Assembly: GCA_020725105.1 (NCBI GenBank) | Contig: DYFQ01000012.1 | Span: 1 to 64,000 of the forward strand | DNA length: 64,000 bases | Direction: 5' to 3' | DNA from: Symbiobacterium thermophilum | Lineage (GTDB): Bacteria; Bacillota; Sulfobacillia; DYFQ01 | Shown here: positions 20,028-39,820 of the stretch, piece after piece | How positions within the stretch are numbered: position 1 is the stretch's first letter | How the letters are laid out: each line of letters begins with the position of its first letter | Notes under the pieces: generated by a model | Databases searched by the model: none | The model's input: the letters and a program-made list of their open reading frames with translations, nothing else | What the model was told of the DNA's origin: nothing | Translations under genes and position numbers: made by a program

Positions 20028-22790
20028 ATGAAAGGTCGGCCGCTGGTCAGGGCGTTGGAGAAACTGGCGGGCCCCGGGAACGTGCTTTCCTCGCCGGTCA
20101 GCCTGGCCACCTATGGCTACGACGCCACGCTGCTGGAAGGACGGGCCGACGCGGTGGTCTTTCCCACCAGCACCGAGCAGGTGTCCGCCTTGCTCGCCTT
20201 CTGCCACCGGCACCGCGTTTCGGTGGTCCCCCGGGGCCACGGCACCAACCTGAGCGGCGGTTCGGTTCCCCAGGGCGGGGTGGTGATGGCCCTCACCCGC
20301 ATGAACCGCGTTCTCTCGGTGGATGCCCCCAACCGCCTGGCCGTCGTCCAGTGCGGCGTCATCAACCTGGACCTGCAGAAGGCGGCGGAGAGGGCGGGGT
20401 TGATGTACGCCCCCGACCCGGCGAGCCAGAAGGTGTGCTCCCTGGGGGGTAACGTGGCCGAGGGCGCCGGCGGCATGCGGGGCCTGAAGTACGGGGTGAC
20501 CAAGGATCACGTGATCGGGCTGAAGTTCGTTCTGGCGGACGGGGAGGTGTGCCAGGCCGGCGGAGGACTGCAGCCCGTGGCGCCGGTTCCCGACTGGACC
20601 GGGCTGCTGGTTGGCTCCGAGGGCACCCTCGGCGTGGTCACCGAGATCACCGTCCGGCTGATTCCCAGACCGCCGGCGGTCAAGACAATGCTGGCCGTGT
20701 TTGACCGCCTGGAGGACGCGACCGCCACCGTGTCGGCCATCGTGGCCCGGGGCATCGTGCCCACCACCCTGGAACTCATGGACCGCCCGGTCGTCGAGGC
20801 GGTGGAGGCCTACGTCCACGTGGGCCTGCCCACCGACGCCGAGGTGGTTCTGCTCATCGAGGTGGACGGGCTCGAGGCGGGTCTGGACCGCCAGGCCGAG
20901 GTGGTGCAGGACGTGTGCCGCGGGCAGGGTGCCCGCGAGGTGCGGCTGGCGCGGTCCGCCGCCGAGCGGGACCGGCTGTGGCTCGGCCGCCGCACCGCCA
21001 TCGGAGCCATTGCCCGCCTGGCTCCCTGCTACGATCTGGAGGACGTGACCGTACCGCGCAACAGGCTTACCGACATGGCCCGAGTGGTGAGGGAACTGTC
21101 GCAGAAGTACGACCTGACCATCGGGATTCTGGCCCACGCCGGCGACGGCAACCTTCACCCCCTGGTGCTGTTCGACGACCGCGACGCCGACGAGGTGAAC
21201 CGGATGATGGGCGCCCGGCGGGAGCTATTCCGCCGCGCCCTTGACCTGGGCGGTACGCTCACCGGGGAGCACGGGATCGGCCTTTTGAAGAAAGAGTTCA
21301 TGCCCTGGCTCTTCTCGCCGCGGGAACTGCGAACCATGGACCACGTGAAGGCTGCCTTCGATCCGGCGGGAGTGCTGAACCCCGGGAAGGTGCTCGGAGA
21401 GGGGTCTGCACCGAAACAACCTGAGCGGTCCCCGGACGCCGCGGCGCGGGATCGCCTGGTGTCGCGGCTGGAAGGGTTGCTTGGCCCCGCCGCCGTGGCG
21501 GCCGGGGACCAGCTTGACGGCGCTCCCGGACGGGTGCCCGACGTCTGGGCGGCACCGGCGGACGAACCGCAGCTCAGGGAGCTTCTGGGCTGGGCCACCC
21601 GGGAGCGGGTGCCGGTGTACCCCCGCGGCGGCGGTACCCGCTGGGCGGAGGCGTTCCGGCCGTTCAGGGGCGGCGTCGGACTGGACCTGCGGCGGCTGGA
21701 TCGCATGGAGGACCTGGACGCCGACAACCTCACCGTGGTGGCGGGGGCCGGGATGACCCACGAGACCCTTCAGCGGGCGCTGGCTGCGCACCGGCTCTTT
21801 TGGCCCTCGGAGACGGCCTGGCCCCAACGCTCGACCCTGGGTGGCGAGGTGGCCACCGACGCGTCGGGGCCGCGCAGGTACGGCTGGGGATCGGTGCGCT
21901 CCCACCTCCTGGGCTGCCGGGTCGTGTTTCCCGACGGGTCAGGCGGACTCTTCGGCGGCAAGCAGGTGAAGAACGTCTCCGGCTACGACGTTTCCCGGTT
22001 TCTCTGCGGCTCGTGGGGCTCACTGGGCGTCATCACCCAGGTAATCCTGAAGGTGAGGCCGCGCCCCGAGCGGTCACTGGTCAGGGTCTACGAGGGACCT
22101 GCCCGCGGCGTGCTGCGGGCGGCGGAAGAGGTAAGGCTGGGTCTGTTCGGCGCCGTGGCCATCGAGGTCCTGCTGGGCCAGGCTGTGGGCTGGTTCCACG
22201 GCCGGGCGTCGGGTCACCTTCCGTTCGACCAGGGCGTGTTGCTGGTGGGGCTGGAGGGCGCCGAGGAGGCGGTCGCCTGGCAGACGGCGCGGGCGGACAA
22301 GGTGGCGGCGGGGCAGGGTCTGACCCTCCGGCCCCAGGGCCCGGAGGCTCAGGGGGTCTGGAGGGCCCTCCGGGCCCTGCCGGACCTGGCCCGCCGGTCG
22401 GGCCTGGCCGTCTGGAACCTGGCGGTCCTGCCGGCTGACCTGGAGGGCTTGCTGGCCAGCCTGGCCGAGCCCGGCGCCGCCGCAGCCGGTGGCGCGCCCG
22501 GCGGCGCTGTGGTCGGTGTGGCGGCGCACGCCGGCAACGGTCACGCTCGCCTGTTCGTGACACCGGAGAATGGCGGGCCGCCGGAGGGCGGCCAGCTTGC
22601 CGAGGTCGGCGCCCGGGTCAGGACCAGGGGCGGCTGCCTGGCGCCCGAGGACGCCGTCCTGGCCGACAGCCCCTTTCGGGTACTGCCCGCCACGGGGTCG
22701 TTGGGTCCGGTATGGCAACGGCTCAAGAACGTGCTGGATCCCGCCGGCATCATGGGCCCCGCGGGACGGATAGGGGACAGGGCGGGATGA
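20028..22790 (+). CDS. GlcD-GlcE fusion, FAD-linked 2-hydroxyacid (glycolate/D-lactate) dehydrogenase
   Basis: A 920-residue fusion of the two FAD-binding subunits of glycolate oxidase. Residues 1-455 are GlcD: VVPRGHGTNLSGGSVPQGG and LGGNVAEGAGGMRGLKYGVT bind FAD, and the C-terminal cap holds HAGDGNLHPLVLFD, GGTLTGEHGIGLLKK and FDPAGVLNPGK. Residues 470-920 are GlcE-like: VPVYPRGGGTRW, STLGGEVATDASGPRRYGWG, NVSGYDVSRFLCGSWGSLG and a final LDPAGIMGP. ATG 20028 follows GGAAGGG. The stop overlaps the start of the glcF homologue (ATGA). The enzyme should oxidise a 2-hydroxyacid to a 2-oxoacid; glycolate and D-lactate are both possible. Confidence 0.88.
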   Translation: MKGRPLVRALEKLAGPGNVLSSPVSLATYGYDATLLEGRADAVVFPTSTEQVSALLAFCHRHRVSVVPRGHGTNLSGGSVPQGGVVMALTRMNRVLSVDAPNRLAVVQCGVINLDLQKAAERAGLMYAPDPASQKVCSLGGNVAEGAGGMRGLKYGVTKDHVIGLKFVLADGEVCQAGGGLQPVAPVPDWTGLLVGSEGTLGVVTEITVRLIPRPPAVKTMLAVFDRLEDATATVSAIVARGIVPTTLELMDRPVVEAVEAYVHVGLPTDAEVVLLIEVDGLEAGLDRQAEVVQDVCRGQGAREVRLARSAAERDRLWLGRRTAIGAIARLAPCYDLEDVTVPRNRLTDMARVVRELSQKYDLTIGILAHAGDGNLHPLVLFDDRDADEVNRMMGARRELFRRALDLGGTLTGEHGIGLLKKEFMPWLFSPRELRTMDHVKAAFDPAGVLNPGKVLGEGSAPKQPERSPDAAARDRLVSRLEGLLGPAAVAAGDQLDGAPGRVPDVWAAPADEPQLRELLGWATRERVPVYPRGGGTRWAEAFRPFRGGVGLDLRRLDRMEDLDADNLTVVAGAGMTHETLQRALAAHRLFWPSETAWPQRSTLGGEVATDASGPRRYGWGSVRSHLLGCRVVFPDGSGGLFGGKQVKNVSGYDVSRFLCGSWGSLGVITQVILKVRPRPERSLVRVYEGPARGVLRAAEEVRLGLFGAVAIEVLLGQAVGWFHGRASGHLPFDQGVLLVGLEGAEEAVAWQTARADKVAAGQGLTLRPQGPEAQGVWRALRALPDLARRSGLAVWNLAVLPADLEGLLASLAEPGAAAAGGAPGGAVVGVAAHAGNGHARLFVTPENGGPPEGGQLAEVGARVRTRGGCLAPEDAVLADSPFRVLPATGSLGPVWQRLKNVLDPAGIMGPAGRIGDRAG

Positions 22791-24435: not shown

Positions 24436-24602
24436 GCGCGTAGGCTCCCCTCACGGCTGTTCCTGGCGTCGGGACTTCCACGGGCCGGGCTGTCAACCCT
24501 GCTGGCGGACGGCCGCGAGGTGCTCCGGCGCCGGCTCCCCCGGCATGGCATCCTGCTCCTCCAGGTCCGTTGCTGTCGCCCCAGCTACACTCCGCGGACG
24601 GG

Positions 24603-24631
24603 TTGACCGCCCCGTTCGCTTGGGATAGTAT
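24603..24631 (+). promoter_or_regulatory. Sigma-A-type promoter before the Mn riboswitch
   Basis: TTGACC (24603-24608) and TAGTAT (24626-24631) with a 17-base spacer. Transcription would begin near 24638, directly at the 5' edge of the riboswitch. Confidence 0.6.
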
Positions 24632-24635
24632 ACGG

Positions 24636-24758
24636 TGGTGAGGGGAGTAATCGGTGGCCCAAGAACGGGCCACGACAGGGCCGTCAGTACGGCGCATTGC
24701 CCGGCCCTGTCTTCCACGGTGAGACCTCCGGAGCGGCGTGGCCGTCCGGGGGTCTTTT
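24636..24758 (+). promoter_or_regulatory. yybP-ykoY (Mn2+) riboswitch with terminator platform
   Basis: The leader has the marks of the yybP-ykoY manganese riboswitch. GGGGAGTA (24642-24649) forms the conserved first loop. A perfect stem GTGGCCC/GGGCCAC (24654-24673) follows, then GACAGGGCC/GGCCCTGTC (24674-24711) enclosing GTCAGTACGG, and the closing GGTGAGACCTCC (24718-24729). GAGG (24640-24643) can pair with CCTC (24725-24728) as P1. The same 3' arm also pairs in GACCTCCGGA (24723-24732 region) with TCCGGGGGTC (24745-24754) followed by TTTT, an intrinsic terminator. Metal binding would free the downstream genes, the usual ON switch. Confidence 0.75.
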
Positions 24759-24811
24759 GCTGCCGGGGGGCGACATGGGGTTTTGAGGTTCAACGGGGGA
24801 GGGACGTTTCG

Positions 24812-25063
24812 ATGCCGGCAGTGATCTGTCCGAACTGCAATGCAGGGATGCATGAGGTATCCCGGAACGGCGTGCTCATCGATGTGTGCACGCAGTGCCG
24901 GGGGGTGTGGCTGGACCGAGGCGAGCTGGAGAAGCTCCTGGACTTTGTGCGTCGGCTCGACGAGGAATGGTCCCGCGACGGCCGGGATTGGGACGACGAT
25001 CGCCGGGCAAGCCGGCCTGTCCGGAAATCCGGACTGTCCCGGATCTTCGACATCTTCGACTAG
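24812..25063 (+). CDS. Small zf-TFIIB zinc-ribbon protein
   Basis: An 83-residue protein with the bacterial zf-TFIIB (COG3809-type) domain. CPNCN (about residues 6-10) and CTQCRGVWLDRGELEKL (about 29-45) make the zinc site and its signature. The remainder is charged and ends RIFDIFD. ATG 24812 follows GGGGGAGGGA. It is the first gene behind the Mn2+ riboswitch and stands 60 bases before the exchanger gene, so both may be metal-controlled. Members often sit beside membrane proteins; no molecular function is established. Confidence 0.82.
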   Translation: MPAVICPNCNAGMHEVSRNGVLIDVCTQCRGVWLDRGELEKLLDFVRRLDEEWSRDGRDWDDDRRASRPVRKSGLSRIFDIFD

Positions 25064-25123
25064 CGGACGGACCGTGGTGACGCAGACCGGCGATGTCACC
25101 GGTGATCGGAAGGTGAACGAGAC

Positions 25124-26119
25124 TTGAGTCTGGACCTGGCCGTTCTTGCCTTTCTCGCCAGCATGCTTGCTATATGGGCGGGAGGCCGCGCCCTGACGCG
25201 GTCGGCTGATCTCATCGCTGGCCACACGGGCCTGGGGCGCGTCTTCGTCGGGAGCTTTTTGCTGGCCGCCACCACGTCACTGCCCGAGATCGCCACAGAG
25301 GCTGCCGCGGCTTCGCTGGGCCTGGTAGACATCGCCCTGGGCGACCTGTTTGGCAGCAACATCTTCAACATGACCATCATCGCGGTGGCGGGCGCGGTAT
25401 GGGGGGGCGGTTCGCTCCTGGCCGCGGCTTCCAGGTCGCACATCGTCACGGCGACCTTCGGGATGCTATTGTCCGCCATGGCCGCCATGGCCGTTCTTGT
25501 CCGGCCGAACGTGGGCGTCCTTGGGATCGGCGCGGACGTGTGGTTGATCGTTGCCGTGTACGTCATGGGAATCCGGCTGCTGAAGTCACATGCCATGGAA
25601 GATCGGGCGGACGCGGCCGGCAGGGCGGCCGAGCGCAGCGTGCTGGCCGACATCGTAGCCGTGTGGGCGCGCTACCTCGCCGCCGGCGCGCTGGTGATCG
25701 GGGGGGCAATCCTGCTGGCCAGGGCCGCGGAGACCATTGCCGAGGCTACCGGCCTGGGCCAGACGTTTGTGGGTTCCACCATGGTCGCCATTACCACCTC
25801 GACCCCGGAGATCGTCACCACCATCGCCGCCGTGCGCCTGGGAGCGGTGGACCTGGCCGTGGGGAACGTCCTGGGCAGCAACATCTTCAACATGACGATC
25901 CTGCTGGTGTCGGACATCTTCTACCGGGGAGGCTACATCCTCTCGGCGGGGGGCCAGACGCATGCCCTGACGGCTCTTGTCGGACTCATCCTGAGCGGGC
26001 TGGTAGTCCTGGGGCTGGCAGCGCCCATCACCCGCCGCCTCGGACGGGTTTCCGGAGAAGCCGCGCTGCTGCTGGGGGTCTATCTTGTCGGGACGATCAT
26101 CCTGTTCCTGCACCGCTAG
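25124..26119 (+). CDS. Sodium/calcium exchanger family (CaCA) cation antiporter
   Basis: A 331-residue membrane protein of the Ca2+/cation antiporter family with the two inverted alpha repeats. Repeat 1 has GSFLLAATTSLPEIATE and GDLFGSNIFNM (about residues 44-82). Repeat 2 has GSTMVAITTSTPEIVTT and GNVLGSNIFNM (about 217-258). The conserved Glu of each PEI motif is present. About ten transmembrane segments are visible. TTG 25124 follows GGAAGGTG. Relatives exchange Na+ or H+ for Ca2+; the upstream Mn2+ riboswitch suggests Mn2+ export here, which is inference. Confidence 0.88.
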   Translation: MSLDLAVLAFLASMLAIWAGGRALTRSADLIAGHTGLGRVFVGSFLLAATTSLPEIATEAAAASLGLVDIALGDLFGSNIFNMTIIAVAGAVWGGGSLLAAASRSHIVTATFGMLLSAMAAMAVLVRPNVGVLGIGADVWLIVAVYVMGIRLLKSHAMEDRADAAGRAAERSVLADIVAVWARYLAAGALVIGGAILLARAAETIAEATGLGQTFVGSTMVAITTSTPEIVTTIAAVRLGAVDLAVGNVLGSNIFNMTILLVSDIFYRGGYILSAGGQTHALTALVGLILSGLVVLGLAAPITRRLGRVSGEAALLLGVYLVGTIILFLHR

Positions 26120-26288
26120 CGGGGGGCTTGGCCGGATCGAGCACCCGGCCATCCGAGCACACCGAGGTGCCGTCCGGGCCCACAAACTTCCGGGCGGCCG
26201 GGGGCCGGTGTCGCCCGGACGTGACGTTCACAATAACGGAGGCGCGAGACCCTGTGCCGACTCGCTCGCCGAGGGAGATGGAAGGGAG

Positions 26289-27185
26289 ATGGAACCGTAC
26301 GTGGAGGGTGCCGCGCGGGCCGGTGGCCGGGGAGCGCCGCCGGTGTACGCCGGTAGAACCGTGGCCCTGTTGACGCAGCATCGCAAGGAGCTGGTCATCA
26401 CGCCTGTCCTCGAGGCCGGGCTGGGGTGCGTGGTGGAGCTGGTCACGGGCTTTGATACGGACCGGTTCGGCACCTTCACCCGCGAGATCCCGCGTCCCGG
26501 GACGCTGGTGGAGACCGCACGCAAGAAGGCTCGCCAGGGGATGGTCCTTTCCGGCCTTCCCCTGGGCGTCGCCAGCGAGGGCGCCTTCGGGCCGGACCCG
26601 GTGATCGGATTCATGCCGTGGAACGTGGAACTCGTGATCTGGGTCGACGATGCCCTGGGCCTGGAGGTAATGGGTACGGTGGCCAACAGCCGTACCAACT
26701 TCGACCACCTCGTGACCGCGGACTGGGACGAGCTGTCGGCCTTCGCCCGCAAGGTCGGGTTCCCGGACCATCATCTGGTCGTGCGTCCCGACGGGGCAGA
26801 CGACCCCCGCGTGCGCAAGGGGCTTTCAGACTGGGAGGCTCTTGAGGGGGCGTTTGCCTGGGCTCTGGCGCAGTCGGCCGGCGGGCGCGTGTTTGTGGAG
26901 ACGGACATGCGCGCCCACGCCAACCCAACGCGCATGACCAACATCCGGGCGGCGGCGGAAGACCTCGTCAGCAAGTTGCGGTGCCCGTGTCCAGCCTGCC
27001 GCGCGCCGGGTTTCGCGGTGGCGGGTCGCGTCCCCGGCCGGCCGTGCGAGCTGTGCGGCACACCGACCCCGGAACCGGTGGCCGAGGTCCACCGGTGCCC
27101 CAGGTGCGGCCACGAGCAGCGGGCCGAGCCGGACGGCGCGCCCGCGCGGGCCCCGGCGGCGGTGTGCCCCTTTTGCAACCCGTAG
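26289..27185 (+). CDS. DUF6671 family protein with C-terminal zinc ribbon
   Basis: A 298-residue protein that I match to DUF6671. Conserved-looking blocks are YAGRTVALLTQHRKE, GFDTDRFGTFTREIPR, SGLPLGVASEGAFGPDP, PWNVELV and VFVETDMRAHANPTRM. The C-terminal 60 residues carry CPCPACRAPGF, CELCGTPT, CPRCGHE and CPFC, which look like two zinc-ribbon sites. ATG 26289 is taken because nothing upstream resembles the family. No activity is known. It precedes purE by 20 bases. Confidence 0.72.
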   Translation: MEPYVEGAARAGGRGAPPVYAGRTVALLTQHRKELVITPVLEAGLGCVVELVTGFDTDRFGTFTREIPRPGTLVETARKKARQGMVLSGLPLGVASEGAFGPDPVIGFMPWNVELVIWVDDALGLEVMGTVANSRTNFDHLVTADWDELSAFARKVGFPDHHLVVRPDGADDPRVRKGLSDWEALEGAFAWALAQSAGGRVFVETDMRAHANPTRMTNIRAAAEDLVSKLRCPCPACRAPGFAVAGRVPGRPCELCGTPTPEPVAEVHRCPRCGHEQRAEPDGAPARAPAAVCPFCNP

Positions 27186-29552: not shown

Positions 29553-29912
29553 TTATCGTTCGGCGGAGCCGACGCACGTCTCGACCGGTGTCACCGTCAG
29601 GATGCCGCCCCAGCGCCGAAGCAGCGGCTCGGCAGCCCGTACGATCTGCTCCGCCACGTCGGCCCGGGCGATGATCACCACCATGTCGTTTTTGAGAACG
29701 TTGGAAAAGCCCAGGTCCCGCCGGACTCCGCGGTGACCCTTGCCGTGGACGCGAGGGATGACCGTATACCCCGCGGCCCCCGCCCGCTCCACGACGGCAA
29801 GGAGCCGCTGGAGCTCCAAGGTTTCGAACACGATCTCGACCCGCTTGAGCTCCGTCGCTCCCGCCACCTCCGCGCCTCCCTGCCGGGAGACCTGAGTCTG
29901 ACGCCTTGCCAC
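29553..29912 (-). CDS. PII-like SbtB-type regulatory protein
   Basis: A 119-residue PII-fold protein encoded beside an SbtA transporter. In cyanobacteria SbtB binds SbtA and adenine nucleotides to gate bicarbonate uptake. The family pattern is visible as KRVEIVFETLELQRLLAVV, AGYTVIPRVHGKGHRG (the T-loop region) and DMVVIIARADVAEQIVRA. The redox CGPxGC tail of some cyanobacterial SbtB proteins is absent. GTG 29912 is preferred because GGAGGTGG precedes it on the minus strand. It follows sbtA by about 50 bases in the same operon. Confidence 0.78.
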   Translation of the reverse strand: MARRQTQVSRQGGAEVAGATELKRVEIVFETLELQRLLAVVERAGAAGYTVIPRVHGKGHRGVRRDLGFSNVLKNDMVVIIARADVAEQIVRAAEPLLRRWGGILTVTPVETCVGSAER

Positions 29913-29962
29913 TACCCGCCACCTCCGTGTCCGGACGCGGTACCCACAACCGTCCCACGGCC

Positions 29963-30961
29963 TCACGTTCCGGCCAAGGCCTGCGCAAGGGTGTAAAACA
30001 GGGGGATGCCCAGCAGAATGTTGAACGGGAACGTGGTCCCAAGGGAAAGAGTCATCGAGAGGGAAGGATTGGCCTGGGGGAGGGAGAGCCGCACCGCCGC
30101 CGGGGCAACGATGTAGGACGCGCTGGCGGCCAGCAGCGCCAGCAGCGTACTACCACCCGGGCTCAGTCCCACCAGTGACCCCAGCGTGACTCCCAGGCTG
30201 CCGCCAATGAGCGGCATGACAATGCCGAACCCAACCAGGAAGCGGCCAAGGCGGAAGAACTCTCCGAGCCGCCGGGCGGTGGTGAGACCCATATCCAGGA
30301 GGAAAACGGCGAGGGCGCCGGGGAAGAGGTCAACCACGAAAGGGCTGACTTTCGCCATCCCTTTCTCACCGGTAAGCGCCCCGATGGCGAAGCTGCCGAG
30401 CAGGAGCACCACGCTGCCTCCGAAGAGCGCCTCCCGTGCCAGACGGCGGAGATCGTTGCCGTTGACCGGAACCCCAGAGGATCCGCGTTGCCGGTACACC
30501 TTGGCCAGGAGGATACCGACGATGATCCCTGGCGTCTCCATCAGGGCCATTACCGCCACCATGAACCCCTCGAAGGGGGCACCCGCCTGATTCAGAAACT
30601 CTATAGTGGTCACAAAGGTCACGGCGCTGATGGAACCGTAATGCGCGGCGATGGCGCCGGCGTTGGTGGGGTCGAGCCTGCCGACCGTTGTCAGGATGGC
30701 GAACGCGACGAGCGGGATGACCAGGCCCAGCGCGACGCCGCATCCGGCGGCCGCGGCCATCTGCCAGGAGAACCCGGCGTGCGCCAGCTCTACCCCGCCG
30801 CGGAAGCCGATGGCCAGCATCAGGTAGAGTGCCAGGACCCCGGTGGCTTCCCGGGGGATGCTGAGGTCGGACTGCGCCAGCCCCGCCAGGAGGCCGAGGA
30901 TGAAGAAGAGAATGGCCGGCGAGAGCACGTTGCTCGCAGTCTGGCCGATCAGGTCAAGCAC
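29963..30961 (-). CDS. SbtA family sodium-dependent bicarbonate transporter
   Basis: A 332-residue integral membrane protein of the SbtA (DUF897) family, which in cyanobacteria imports bicarbonate with Na+. Two inverted halves of about five helices each are evident. The first includes ALYLMLAIGFRGGVELAH and AAHYGSISAVTFVTTIEFL, and the second FLLDMGLTTARRLGEF and AASASYIVAPAAVRLSLPQA, both typical. GTG 30961 has GGGAGG upstream on the minus strand. It is first in a two-gene operon with the PII-like protein. In a heterotroph it may feed carboxylases such as PurK; this is speculative. Confidence 0.85.
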   Translation of the reverse strand: MLDLIGQTASNVLSPAILFFILGLLAGLAQSDLSIPREATGVLALYLMLAIGFRGGVELAHAGFSWQMAAAAGCGVALGLVIPLVAFAILTTVGRLDPTNAGAIAAHYGSISAVTFVTTIEFLNQAGAPFEGFMVAVMALMETPGIIVGILLAKVYRQRGSSGVPVNGNDLRRLAREALFGGSVVLLLGSFAIGALTGEKGMAKVSPFVVDLFPGALAVFLLDMGLTTARRLGEFFRLGRFLVGFGIVMPLIGGSLGVTLGSLVGLSPGGSTLLALLAASASYIVAPAAVRLSLPQANPSLSMTLSLGTTFPFNILLGIPLFYTLAQALAGT

Positions 30962-36211: not shown

Positions 36212-36363
36212 CCCCAGGTTCCCCTGCTCCGACACACCCGGCAGTTTTTGCGCCAGGTTCTGGCCTGTCCCCCCTAAAATTCCAGCGGCCTACGAACGGT
36301 ATGAACAAGCGGTCGGGGGACCCACGTCCCCGCCGCACGCAACACACACCGCAGTCGACCGCG

Positions 36364-36473
36364 ACAAAGGCAAACGTCCCCGAAAGGGGCGGGCGCAAAG
36401 CCACGGGTCTACAGCGCGAGAGCCGGCGACCGGCCGAGGTCGCCGCCGCGCCAGGACGGCCGGGTTGCCGAAC
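36364..36473 (+). promoter_or_regulatory. c-di-GMP-I (GEMM-I) riboswitch
   Basis: The sequence carries the conserved GEMM-I framework. AAAGGCAAAC (36366-36375) is followed by a stem TCCCC/GGGG closed by a GAAA tetraloop (36382-36385). Then come GCGCAAAGCCACGGGTCTAC (36393-36412), a variable hairpin (GCGCG...GGCGACC/GGTCGCC...CGCGC) and the tetraloop-receptor end CCAGGACGG with CGGGTTGCCGAACGG (about 36451-36475). It lies about 100 bases before the Flp pilin gene, and a terminator-like hairpin at 36503-36548 can serve as expression platform. GEMM-I riboswitches are known upstream of pilus genes. Confidence 0.85.
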
Positions 36474-37397: not shown

Positions 37398-38375
37398 GTG
37401 CTCCGCGGGAGGGTGAACACACACATGGACCTGGGGCAGCGAACAGGCCGGACCTGCCGCCGGCGGGGCCTGGCCGGGGACGAGCGGGGGATGGTCGTAA
37501 TCGCGTTCGCGGTGGCCATGGCGGCCGTGGTCGGGTTGAGCGCGCTGAGCCTGGATTCGGCCAAGCTCTTCGGGGTCCGGCACCGGCTCATCAACGTGGC
37601 CGACGCGGCCGCCCTCGCCGGGGGACAACTGTTGCCCGAGGACCCGGCGGGCGCCGTTCAGGCTGCTCGGGAGTACGTGGCCCGCAACGGACTCGATCCC
37701 GACCGGGCCGAGGTGACCGTGTGGCGGGCCAGCCAGCGGATAACCGTCACCCTGCACGCGGACGTGCCGTTGAACTTCGGCCCGGCGGTGGGGATGTCCG
37801 TCTCCAGCCTGGGTTCGGACGCCACGGCGGAGACGGGAATGCTCCACGCCGTGCGGGGTGCCCAGCCCTGGGGCATGGAAGACCCGGGCGACCTGGAGCT
37901 GGGCTTTGGCGAACTGTACACCATCAAGCTCTCCGCCTCGGGAGACGGGGGCACCCGCGGGAACTTCCAGGCCCTGGCCCTGGGCGGCACCGGCGCCGAC
38001 AACTACCGCGACAACATCATCAACGGCTTCCCCGGGCTCCTGGCCCGCGGGGACGTGGTGGACACGGAGCCCGGTGACATGCGGGGACCCACCCGGCAAG
38101 GGCTCCGGTACCGGCTTGACGCCGATCCCGACGCGACCTGGACGACCGTGGTCGCCAGTTCGCCCCGGATCGTGGTGGTGCCCGTAGTGTCCTCGTTCAA
38201 GGAGGCTTCGGGCCGCTCGGTAGTCAGGGTGCTCGGGTTCGGCGCCTTCTTCCTGGAGGACGTCCAGGGTAACCAGGTCGTGGGCCGGTTCCTGCGGCTG
38301 GTCGTCGACGGTGAGCCAGGCGAGTTCGGTTCGGGCAAAGATTACGGTCCGAAGGTGGTCCGCCTGATCGACTGA
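37398..38375 (+). CDS. TadG-like pilus-assembly protein
   Basis: A 325-residue protein with an N-terminal TadE/G-like (TadG_N) domain: GDERGMVVIAFAVAMAAVVG, a hydrophobic helix, then LSLDSAKLFGVRHRL and NVADAAALAGG, the usual signature. The remaining 220 residues are extracytoplasmic and lack the von Willebrand A domain of full TadG proteins, so it resembles the shorter Firmicute version. GTG 37398 has GGAGGAG four bases upstream; ATG 37425 is an alternative. Located between tadE and the cpaB-type gene. Confidence 0.82.
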   Translation: MLRGRVNTHMDLGQRTGRTCRRRGLAGDERGMVVIAFAVAMAAVVGLSALSLDSAKLFGVRHRLINVADAAALAGGQLLPEDPAGAVQAAREYVARNGLDPDRAEVTVWRASQRITVTLHADVPLNFGPAVGMSVSSLGSDATAETGMLHAVRGAQPWGMEDPGDLELGFGELYTIKLSASGDGGTRGNFQALALGGTGADNYRDNIINGFPGLLARGDVVDTEPGDMRGPTRQGLRYRLDADPDATWTTVVASSPRIVVVPVVSSFKEASGRSVVRVLGFGAFFLEDVQGNQVVGRFLRLVVDGEPGEFGSGKDYGPKVVRLID

Positions 38376-38377
38376 GC

Positions 38378-39820
38378 TTGACCGGTCGTGACAGGCGGGT
38401 CCCGGGGGCCGTTGCGGGGGCGCGACGCGTGCGGAAAGTGCGGCTGGTTCGTCTCCTGGTCCTACCGGTCACCGTGGGGCTTGTCATCACCGGGCTGGTC
38501 TATGCCTACCTGGACCAGCTGGTCCCGGCGGGAGAGCAGCCCGCCGTCGTTCAGGTGGTGGTGGCGGCGGAGCCCATTCCGGCCAAGGCCCAGCTCGGCC
38601 GGGAGAAGCTGGCGCTGCGTCCGGTCCCCCAGGAGTTCGCGCCGCCCGGCGCGGCCACGGCCGTCGAGGCCGTGCTGGGCCGGATCACCCTGGTCCCGCT
38701 GGCCCGGGGCGAGGTCGTCCTCGCGTCCAAGCTGGCGTCCCGCGACCAGCCGGCGGGGCTGGCCTACCGGATCCCCGACGGGCGCCGGGCGATGACGGTG
38801 AGGGTGAGCGAGGTGATCGGCGTCGCCGGGTTCCCGCAGCCGGGCGATGCCGTGGACGTGGTGGCCACCTTCACCCGGGAAGTGACGGGAGTGGACAAGA
38901 CCCAGTTGTTGCTGGAAGATGTTCCCGTGCTGGCCGTCGGGCAGCAGACGGCGGTCAGCGAGGCCCAGCCCCGGCCCGAGACCCTCACCTCGCTGACCCT
39001 GGCGGTCACCCCCGAGCAGGCGGTGCTCCTGACCCTGGCGGAGGAGGTGGGCCGCCTCCGGGTGCTGCTCCGACCGGTGCTCGGTGACCGGAGCCGGGGC
39101 CGGCTCGAGGTGACCACCGGCGTGTTCCTCGACGGGGGCACGGCCGGGCTGGAACTCGAGGTCCGGCGGAAGGTCGCCCTGCTGGTCCGGCTGGCGGAGG
39201 TGGATCGCGCCGCCCTGGGAGGGCTGGGCGTGGCGCCGGCGGCCCCGGGCACCGACGGTGCCGGCCTTGTCACCATGAAGGTCGCCTCGCTGAGCGCCGC
39301 GGCCGCGGAGTACTTCGAGGACCTGGTGCGGACCGGCCGGGCCCGGGTCCTCGCCCGGGCCGACCTGGAGGGGCTGAGCCGCGACCGGGTCAGGGTGAGC
39401 TACCTGACCCGGGCACCCCTCTACAGCCGGACGGGCGGGGTCGAGGTCCTCAACTGGCTGGAGTACGGGGTGAACCTGGCGGTGGTGCCCATCGTCTACG
39501 AGGGAGACTCTGTCGACCTCGACGTGCGGCCGGAGGTGCGGGCGGTTGACCTGGTCGCGGCCGGAGCCGAGGCCGCTCCCCTGGTCTGGACCACCGAGGG
39601 CACCGAGCCGGTGGTGCGGCTGCGGACCACCGCCGCCACGGTCCGGCTGGAGCCCGGCCAGGCAGCCATCGTCACCGGCCTGGTGGGGCCGGCCGACTTC
39701 TTGACCGGACCCGAGTTCAAGACCAGGCACGTGCTACCCGAGGAGTACCTGACCGAGGCCGTCCGCGCCGGGCGGCGCGAACTGGTGATCGTCATCTTGC
39801 CCACCGTGGTCTCCCGGTAG
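38378..39820 (+). CDS. CpaB/RcpC SAF-domain protein fused to a secretin-like C-terminal domain
   Basis: A 480-residue protein. After one transmembrane helix (about residues 25-47), residues 58-260 match CpaB/RcpC: VVVAAEPIPAKAQLGREKL and a LARGEVVLASKLA block form the SAF domain, followed by RRAMTVRVSEVIGVAGF and PGDAVDVVATF. Residues 270-480 resemble the C-terminal secretin core of CpaC/GspD: VEVLNWLEYGVNLAVVPIVY, DSVDLDVRPEVRAVD, RLRTTAATVRLEPGQAAIV and RRELVIVILPTVV. The two are normally separate (CpaB and CpaC). The start is uncertain: TTG 38378, or GTG near 38429. Confidence 0.72.
   Translation: MTGRDRRVPGAVAGARRVRKVRLVRLLVLPVTVGLVITGLVYAYLDQLVPAGEQPAVVQVVVAAEPIPAKAQLGREKLALRPVPQEFAPPGAATAVEAVLGRITLVPLARGEVVLASKLASRDQPAGLAYRIPDGRRAMTVRVSEVIGVAGFPQPGDAVDVVATFTREVTGVDKTQLLLEDVPVLAVGQQTAVSEAQPRPETLTSLTLAVTPEQAVLLTLAEEVGRLRVLLRPVLGDRSRGRLEVTTGVFLDGGTAGLELEVRRKVALLVRLAEVDRAALGGLGVAPAAPGTDGAGLVTMKVASLSAAAAEYFEDLVRTGRARVLARADLEGLSRDRVRVSYLTRAPLYSRTGGVEVLNWLEYGVNLAVVPIVYEGDSVDLDVRPEVRAVDLVAAGAEAAPLVWTTEGTEPVVRLRTTAATVRLEPGQAAIVTGLVGPADFLTGPEFKTRHVLPEEYLTEAVRAGRRELVIVILPTVVSR

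Follow-up and report, generated by a model that had tools for sequence, protein, structure and literature searches.

The locus lies within a window of 64,000 nt, by which we mean the whole stretch of DNA analysed, and all of its elements are on the plus strand. A sigma70-type promoter occupies 24603–24631, with TTGACC at 24603–24608, a 17-nt spacer and TAGTAT at 24626–24631. It is the sole sigma70-like site in 24560–26320, where 0.2 would be expected, and the transcription start is predicted at about 24638. The promoter is followed by a riboswitch leader of the yybP-ykoY class (24638–24770) that includes a terminator incompatible with the closed aptamer. Two genes lie downstream. The first (24812–25063) is preceded by the Shine-Dalgarno sequence GGGGGAGGG at 24795–24803 and encodes an 83-residue, ZifS-like zf-TFIIB protein (PF13453, E 7e-20). 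The second (25124–26119) starts with TTG and encodes a 331-residue exchanger of the CaCA family (Na_Ca_ex, PF01699, E 7.5e-33), presumed to be an Mn2+ exporter.

Elsewhere in the window, a c-di-GMP-I riboswitch (36359–36472; 56.2 bits, E 2.7e-8) lies about 0.9 kb upstream of ORFs that by eye resemble pilus-assembly genes (TadG-like, 37398–38375; CpaB-like, 38378–39820). The region 20028–22790 encodes a single 920-residue protein that fuses GlcD-like and GlcE-like halves with two FAD_binding_4 domains, and a GlcF-like protein comes next. On the minus strand, 29553–30961 encodes a Na+-dependent bicarbonate transporter (Sbt_1, PF05982) adjoining a P-II protein, an arrangement like the SbtA–SbtB pair.

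Structure of the leader

The aptamer (24640–24728) has a three-way form without P4, and all of its pairs are standard. P1.1 is formed by 24640–24643 and 24725–24728 and is only 4 bp long. P1.2 pairs 24650–24653 with 24717–24720, and P3.2 pairs 24691–24693 with 24699–24701. The two stems originally predicted to be perfect are P2 (24654–24660 with 24667–24673), paired at 7 of 7 positions, and P3.1 (24674–24683 with 24702–24711), paired at 10 of 10. The conserved L1/P1 core GGGGAGTA is found at 24642–24649, GTCAGTACGG at 24683–24692, the L3 loop UCAGUAC at 24684–24690 and the conserved 3' core GAGACC at 24721–24726; together with the promoter, every sequence element named in the original prediction is where it had been placed. 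GGGGAGTA is invariant in 34 of 34 training sequences of our covariance model (see below), which were themselves gathered by a pattern containing GGGGAGTA. The expected architecture is the minimum free energy fold of 24640–24728 (z = −3.46; 0 of 200 shuffles equally good), and the three-block sequence pattern occurred in none of 200 first-order random windows.

The intrinsic terminator (24723–24758) consists of a 10-bp hairpin, 24723–24732 with 24745–24754, followed by TTTT. It is visible in the computed fold and absent from the output of a simple terminator scan, probably owing to its bulge and long loop. The 5' arm includes the 3' strand of P1.1, CCUC 24725–24728, and this overlap makes the terminator and the closed aptamer mutually exclusive. 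Such sharing had been predicted for P1 and is borne out for its P1.1 segment. Without ligand, the terminator state is favoured over the aptamer state by about 12 kcal/mol (−57.4 versus −45.6).

Assignment to the yybP-ykoY class

RF00080 gave no match in the window at its gathering cut-off, no match in the region even at E ≤ 10 and no match in the whole genome. The experimentally proven mntP and alx switches of E. coli MG1655, whose leaders both have GGGGAGTA followed by GAGACC, also fall below the RF00080 cut-off, and the same cut-off missed all 18 further pattern loci that were tested. Such low sensitivity makes a negative RF00080 result uninformative. A covariance score below this threshold had been named beforehand as a refutation of the class. 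The score is indeed below it, but a test that mntP and alx also fail is not valid as a refuter, and the class claim stands. The gathering cut-off is a database criterion and not a biochemical one, and we do not take it as defining the class. Because it hides real Mn switches, lists of partner genes based on RF00080 are likely incomplete.

A pattern of three conserved blocks retrieved 118 loci from many phyla. The covariance model R1 was built from 34 diverse loci among these, with the window and E. coli left out. R1 scores 50.2 bits on the window (E 2.8e-11) and recovers E. coli mntP (33.6 bits) and alx (29.9 bits). It finds no second copy of the switch in the whole genome, the next-best place having 13.6 bits (E about 6). 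In the R1 helices, 90.4% of cells are paired as compared with 67.5% in shuffles, and the helix covariation is 0.587 as compared with 0.176; the covariation collapses when the partners are slid.

The window has the element order of the class, GGGGAGUA, then an L3 loop with the invariant A, then GAGACC. Helices P1, P2 and P3 are present, and a tertiary L1–L3 contact would be expected from the class; P4 is missing, a trait shared with several of the 34 sequences behind R1. UCAGUAC in L3 differs from UCAUUAC of E. coli alx only at the fourth base, which was free in the search pattern and is variable in the alignment of 34, so that core and L3 together equal those of alx save for one naturally variable base. 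The L3 adenosine coordinates Mn2+ via N7 in the L. lactis (A41) and X. oryzae (A48) switches (PMC6754395). A24686 aligns with these two residues and is the conserved counterpart of the Mn-binding adenosine. Judged by its sequence, 24638–24770 is a yybP-ykoY-class (Mn2+) riboswitch. The covariance model, the core sequence, the invariant L3 adenosine and the expression platform all agree with the class originally predicted.

The best Rfam match to the leader is SSRC10 (RF02617), with 34.2 bits against a cut-off of 56. The RF02617 consensus has the same yybP-type core, so SSRC10 was dropped as an independent sRNA family and treated as the same class; RF02617, 'Streptococcus sRNA 10', is itself probably a terminated Mn riboswitch leader. 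The CGUCANUACGG loop was considered as the mark of a new variant class and ruled out, since alx has the same loop. At seven other loci (L205, L209, L215, L217, L054, L105 and L131), Mn-type switches stand before genes that by eye are Na+-translocating decarboxylase beta-like or NhaA-like, and these are possible ligand variants.

The CaCA exchanger

The exchanger contains two PF01699 stretches, and its TSLPE and TSTPE motifs align to NCX_Mj, which is the nearest solved structure (E 3.5e-12). It has the two alpha-repeat domains and conserved acidic residues of a CaCA protein. In the second GSN motif the last residue is N, against D in NCX_Mj.

The switch was detected in 75 of 201 genomes of relatives. 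Comparison of coordinates across the class/phylum sample shows about 18 genomes in which the switch is directly followed by a CaCA gene; examples are G009:C30, G097:C10, G064:C1, G002:C29 and, twice, G045:C1. In a tree of 25 exchangers, switch-linked members fall into at least four separate CaCA groups. A single origin of the switch-linked CaCA genes was rejected, as the tree requires several changes. The window exchanger belongs to a fully supported group of five members, two of them switch-linked. None of its three closest relatives (G021, G054 and the paralog G000:C52) adjoins a switch, so the subfamily is not bound to Mn control.

A precedent comes from B. pertussis. BP3410 is a published Mn exporter of the CaCA family under yybP-ykoY control; it reduces the Mn content of the cell, and it is Mn, not Ca, that induces it (PMC8546581). 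The repeated, independent pairing of CaCA genes with the switch and this precedent give good support to the exporter function that had been proposed for the window exchanger. From its riboswitch and by analogy to BP3410, it likely exports Mn2+.

The zinc-ribbon protein and its linkage to the switch

An alignment of 15 family members reveals a common C4 ribbon, an invariant GVWLDxGEL block and a helix, followed by a linker that is charged, varies in sequence and contains a basic patch, and at the end by an IFDxFD-like motif. The window protein has the C4 ribbon with the GVWLDxGELxK block as well as the C-terminal IFDxFD-like motif. Its predicted model is confident for approximately residues 1–55 and poor beyond. 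The only close solved structure is that of ZifS (TTHA0897) from T. thermophilus (PDB 8YOZ), which matches over the full length (E 1.8e-22). Our literature search found no paper on ZifS/TTHA0897, none linking zf-TFIIB with manganese and none reporting a link between a zinc-ribbon protein and the Mn riboswitch.

A tblastn comparison of the 83-residue protein with the 118 pattern loci gave 10 matches, every one of them same-strand and no more than 3.5 kb downstream of the switch; there were 0 cases of a zinc-ribbon gene upstream or antisense of the switch. The 10 linked loci belong to five Thermus species, two Actinomycetota, two Deltaproteobacteria and one Chloracidobacterium. Besides the window, three relatives (G040, G012 and G087) carry the gene after the switch, and the two elements are linked in 4 of the 7 relatives having both. 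Overall, the family occurs behind the switch in five phyla, where its neighbours are mostly exporters and a membrane zinc metalloprotease, either HtpX or PF04298. The gene orders vary. In Thermus, the switch is followed by a PF04298 membrane metallopeptidase and the zinc-ribbon gene, in Deltaproteobacteria by HtpX, the zinc-ribbon gene and a P-type ATPase, and in Actinomycetota by a P-type ATPase, the zinc-ribbon gene and HtpX. The order in Chloracidobacterium is switch, htpX, switch, zinc-ribbon gene and TerC. Among the relatives, the zinc-ribbon gene lies between a P-type ATPase and GDT1 in G087, after HtpX in G012 and directly between the switch and TerC in G040, as it lies between the switch and the CaCA gene in the window. 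Bacterial GDT1 genes have been reported to lie almost always under a yybP-ykoY switch (PMC7380456).

HtpX-type membrane zinc protease genes adjoin Mn riboswitches at L048, L078, L100, L108, L142, L206, L208 and L221. The protease gene comes after TerC in L206 and after a CaCA exchanger in L208. At L142 (G337:C68:90389–92040), two riboswitch copies lie about 1 kb apart with htpX between them, and the zinc-ribbon gene and TerC follow the second.

Within 40 switch-bearing genomes there are about 21 strong PF13453 genes, 9 of which are linked, and the estimated chance linkage is about 0.05% per gene (within 3 kb, same strand, 3-Mb genome). Lineages, of which there are about eight, are a safer unit than these gene counts because the counts include related species. 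In most Bacillota with both a zf-TFIIB gene and the switch, the two are unlinked, which indicates that the protein is not exclusive to manganese.

Proposed mechanism and alternative explanations

For yybP-ykoY switches, the published mechanism is that Mn2+ strengthens the weak P1.1 in its competition with the terminator (PMC6754395). For the window we propose that, at low Mn2+, the leader RNA would form the strong hairpin 24723–24754 and RNA polymerase would halt at the U run. When Mn2+ is high, binding of the metal between L1 and L3 (A24686) would dock both legs. The bound ion would stabilise the 4-bp P1.1 and withhold CCUC 24725–24728 from the terminator. Transcription would then continue into both downstream genes; the CaCA exchanger would export Mn2+, and the zinc-ribbon protein would serve as a cytosolic accessory protein of the Mn2+ response. 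We infer a transcriptional ON switch because the 3' strand of P1.1 is at the same time part of the 5' arm of the terminator, as published for the class, and the ligand-free advantage of the terminator state is what an ON switch needs. The U run of only 4 T and the 4-bp length of P1.1 count against it. We put the probability at roughly 80% that the leader is a yybP-ykoY-class switch, turned on by Mn2+ at the level of transcription, and drives a two-gene manganese-detoxification operon.

The aptamer could instead be a yybP-type variant for another divalent ion, such as Ca2+ or Fe2+, with the exchanger acting as an ordinary Na+/Ca2+ antiporter. The exchanger is like NCX_Mj and keeps both acidic site residues, some switch-linked genes of the relatives (Na+-pump-like and NhaA-like) are unlike Mn exporters, and Breaker and colleagues, in a review, expect ligand-altered yybP variants, some of which may sense other divalent ions (PMC7266159). 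However, the metal-site loop of the window is that of the proven Mn switch alx apart from the variable base, and BP3410 is a CaCA protein under the same switch class that exports Mn and whose expression shows no Ca effect (PMC8546581). We consider a different ion improbable. A second alternative concerns the zinc-ribbon gene. Small zf-TFIIB genes sit widely, and presence in the operon would say nothing of manganese if the gene were a passenger, as the many Bacillota genomes carrying both elements unlinked and four same-class relatives (family f23) that keep the gene without any switch match would allow. A passenger should not be confined to the downstream, same-strand side of the switch in five phyla, be linked so far above the chance rate both in the 40 genomes and among the relatives, or have partners that are consistently exporters or membrane zinc proteases, and we judge this explanation rather unlikely. 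A place for the protein in the same response, originally argued from operon position alone, gains support from the recurrence across phyla.

As for what the protein would do there, a transcription factor or an RNA polymerase-binding regulator acting in the manganese response might be suggested by its zinc-ribbon fold, its Pfam name and weak structural matches to RPB9-like polymerase subunits and the antitoxin MqsA. These matches reach no better than E 0.2 and for the most part span the ribbon only, there is no recognisable DNA-binding domain, and the charged, disordered C-terminus ending in the conserved FLxxIFDxFD looks more like a docking tail; a regulator is distinctly unlikely. The partner genes and the conserved tail favour a cytosolic adaptor for membrane exporters or membrane proteases, a role that we hold tentatively and at less than an even chance.

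The riboswitch itself adds a member to a known class, and its combination with an exporter is ordinary, extending a known Mn2+ system to a further lineage. The potentially new finding is that ZifS-type zinc-ribbon proteins, and membrane zinc proteases with them, are repeatedly linked to the Mn riboswitch across phyla. The ZifS family has a solved structure (8YOZ) and no published role that we could find, and linkage to a metal-specific switch in five phyla suggests a specific, testable one. ZifS-family proteins could be a dedicated, widely conserved part of the bacterial Mn2+-overload response. They would be produced in the ON state of the switch and work alongside Mn exporters (CaCA, TerC, P-type ATPase, GDT1) and membrane zinc proteases (HtpX, PF04298), so that mismetallated proteins of the membrane or of the exported fraction are protected or cleared; we rate this proposal a little short of even odds. 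The link to htpX and PF04298 metalloproteases suggests that Mn stress also affects the quality of membrane proteins, in agreement with the TerC–HtpX association reported for B. subtilis (PMC10550928).

Comparison with known systems

The window switch shares with those of E. coli alx and mntP, L. lactis yoaB and X. oryzae the GGGGAGUA and GAGACC core and an L3 loop with the invariant Mn-binding A. The mutual exclusion of P1.1 and the terminator and the position upstream of a cation exporter are common as well. It differs from the known yybP-ykoY switches in having no P4 arm, and so a three-way rather than a four-way junction, in being very GC-rich and in going unreported by RF00080.

BP3410 and the window exchanger are both CaCA exchangers under the yybP-ykoY class and both relatives of M. 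jannaschii NCX; unlike the window operon, BP3410 has no zinc-ribbon partner named in the excerpts of its report (PMC8546581). In the tree of 25 exchangers, from which BP3410 was left out, the window exchanger stands in a CaCA group of its own with five members. TerC proteins of B. subtilis, among them MeeY/YkoY with its Mn riboswitch control, are recovered together with HtpX on purification; excerpts of that study make no mention of a zf-TFIIB protein (PMC10550928). In other phyla, htpX and zinc-ribbon genes cluster behind the same switch, whereas the window operon is without htpX.

The zinc-ribbon protein has the same C4 ribbon, helix and C-terminal FDxFD end as ZifS (TTHA0897) of T. thermophilus HB8 (8YOZ). 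In five other Thermus species the ZifS gene also lies behind the riboswitch, and the first gene of these operons is the PF04298 membrane metallopeptidase and not an exporter.
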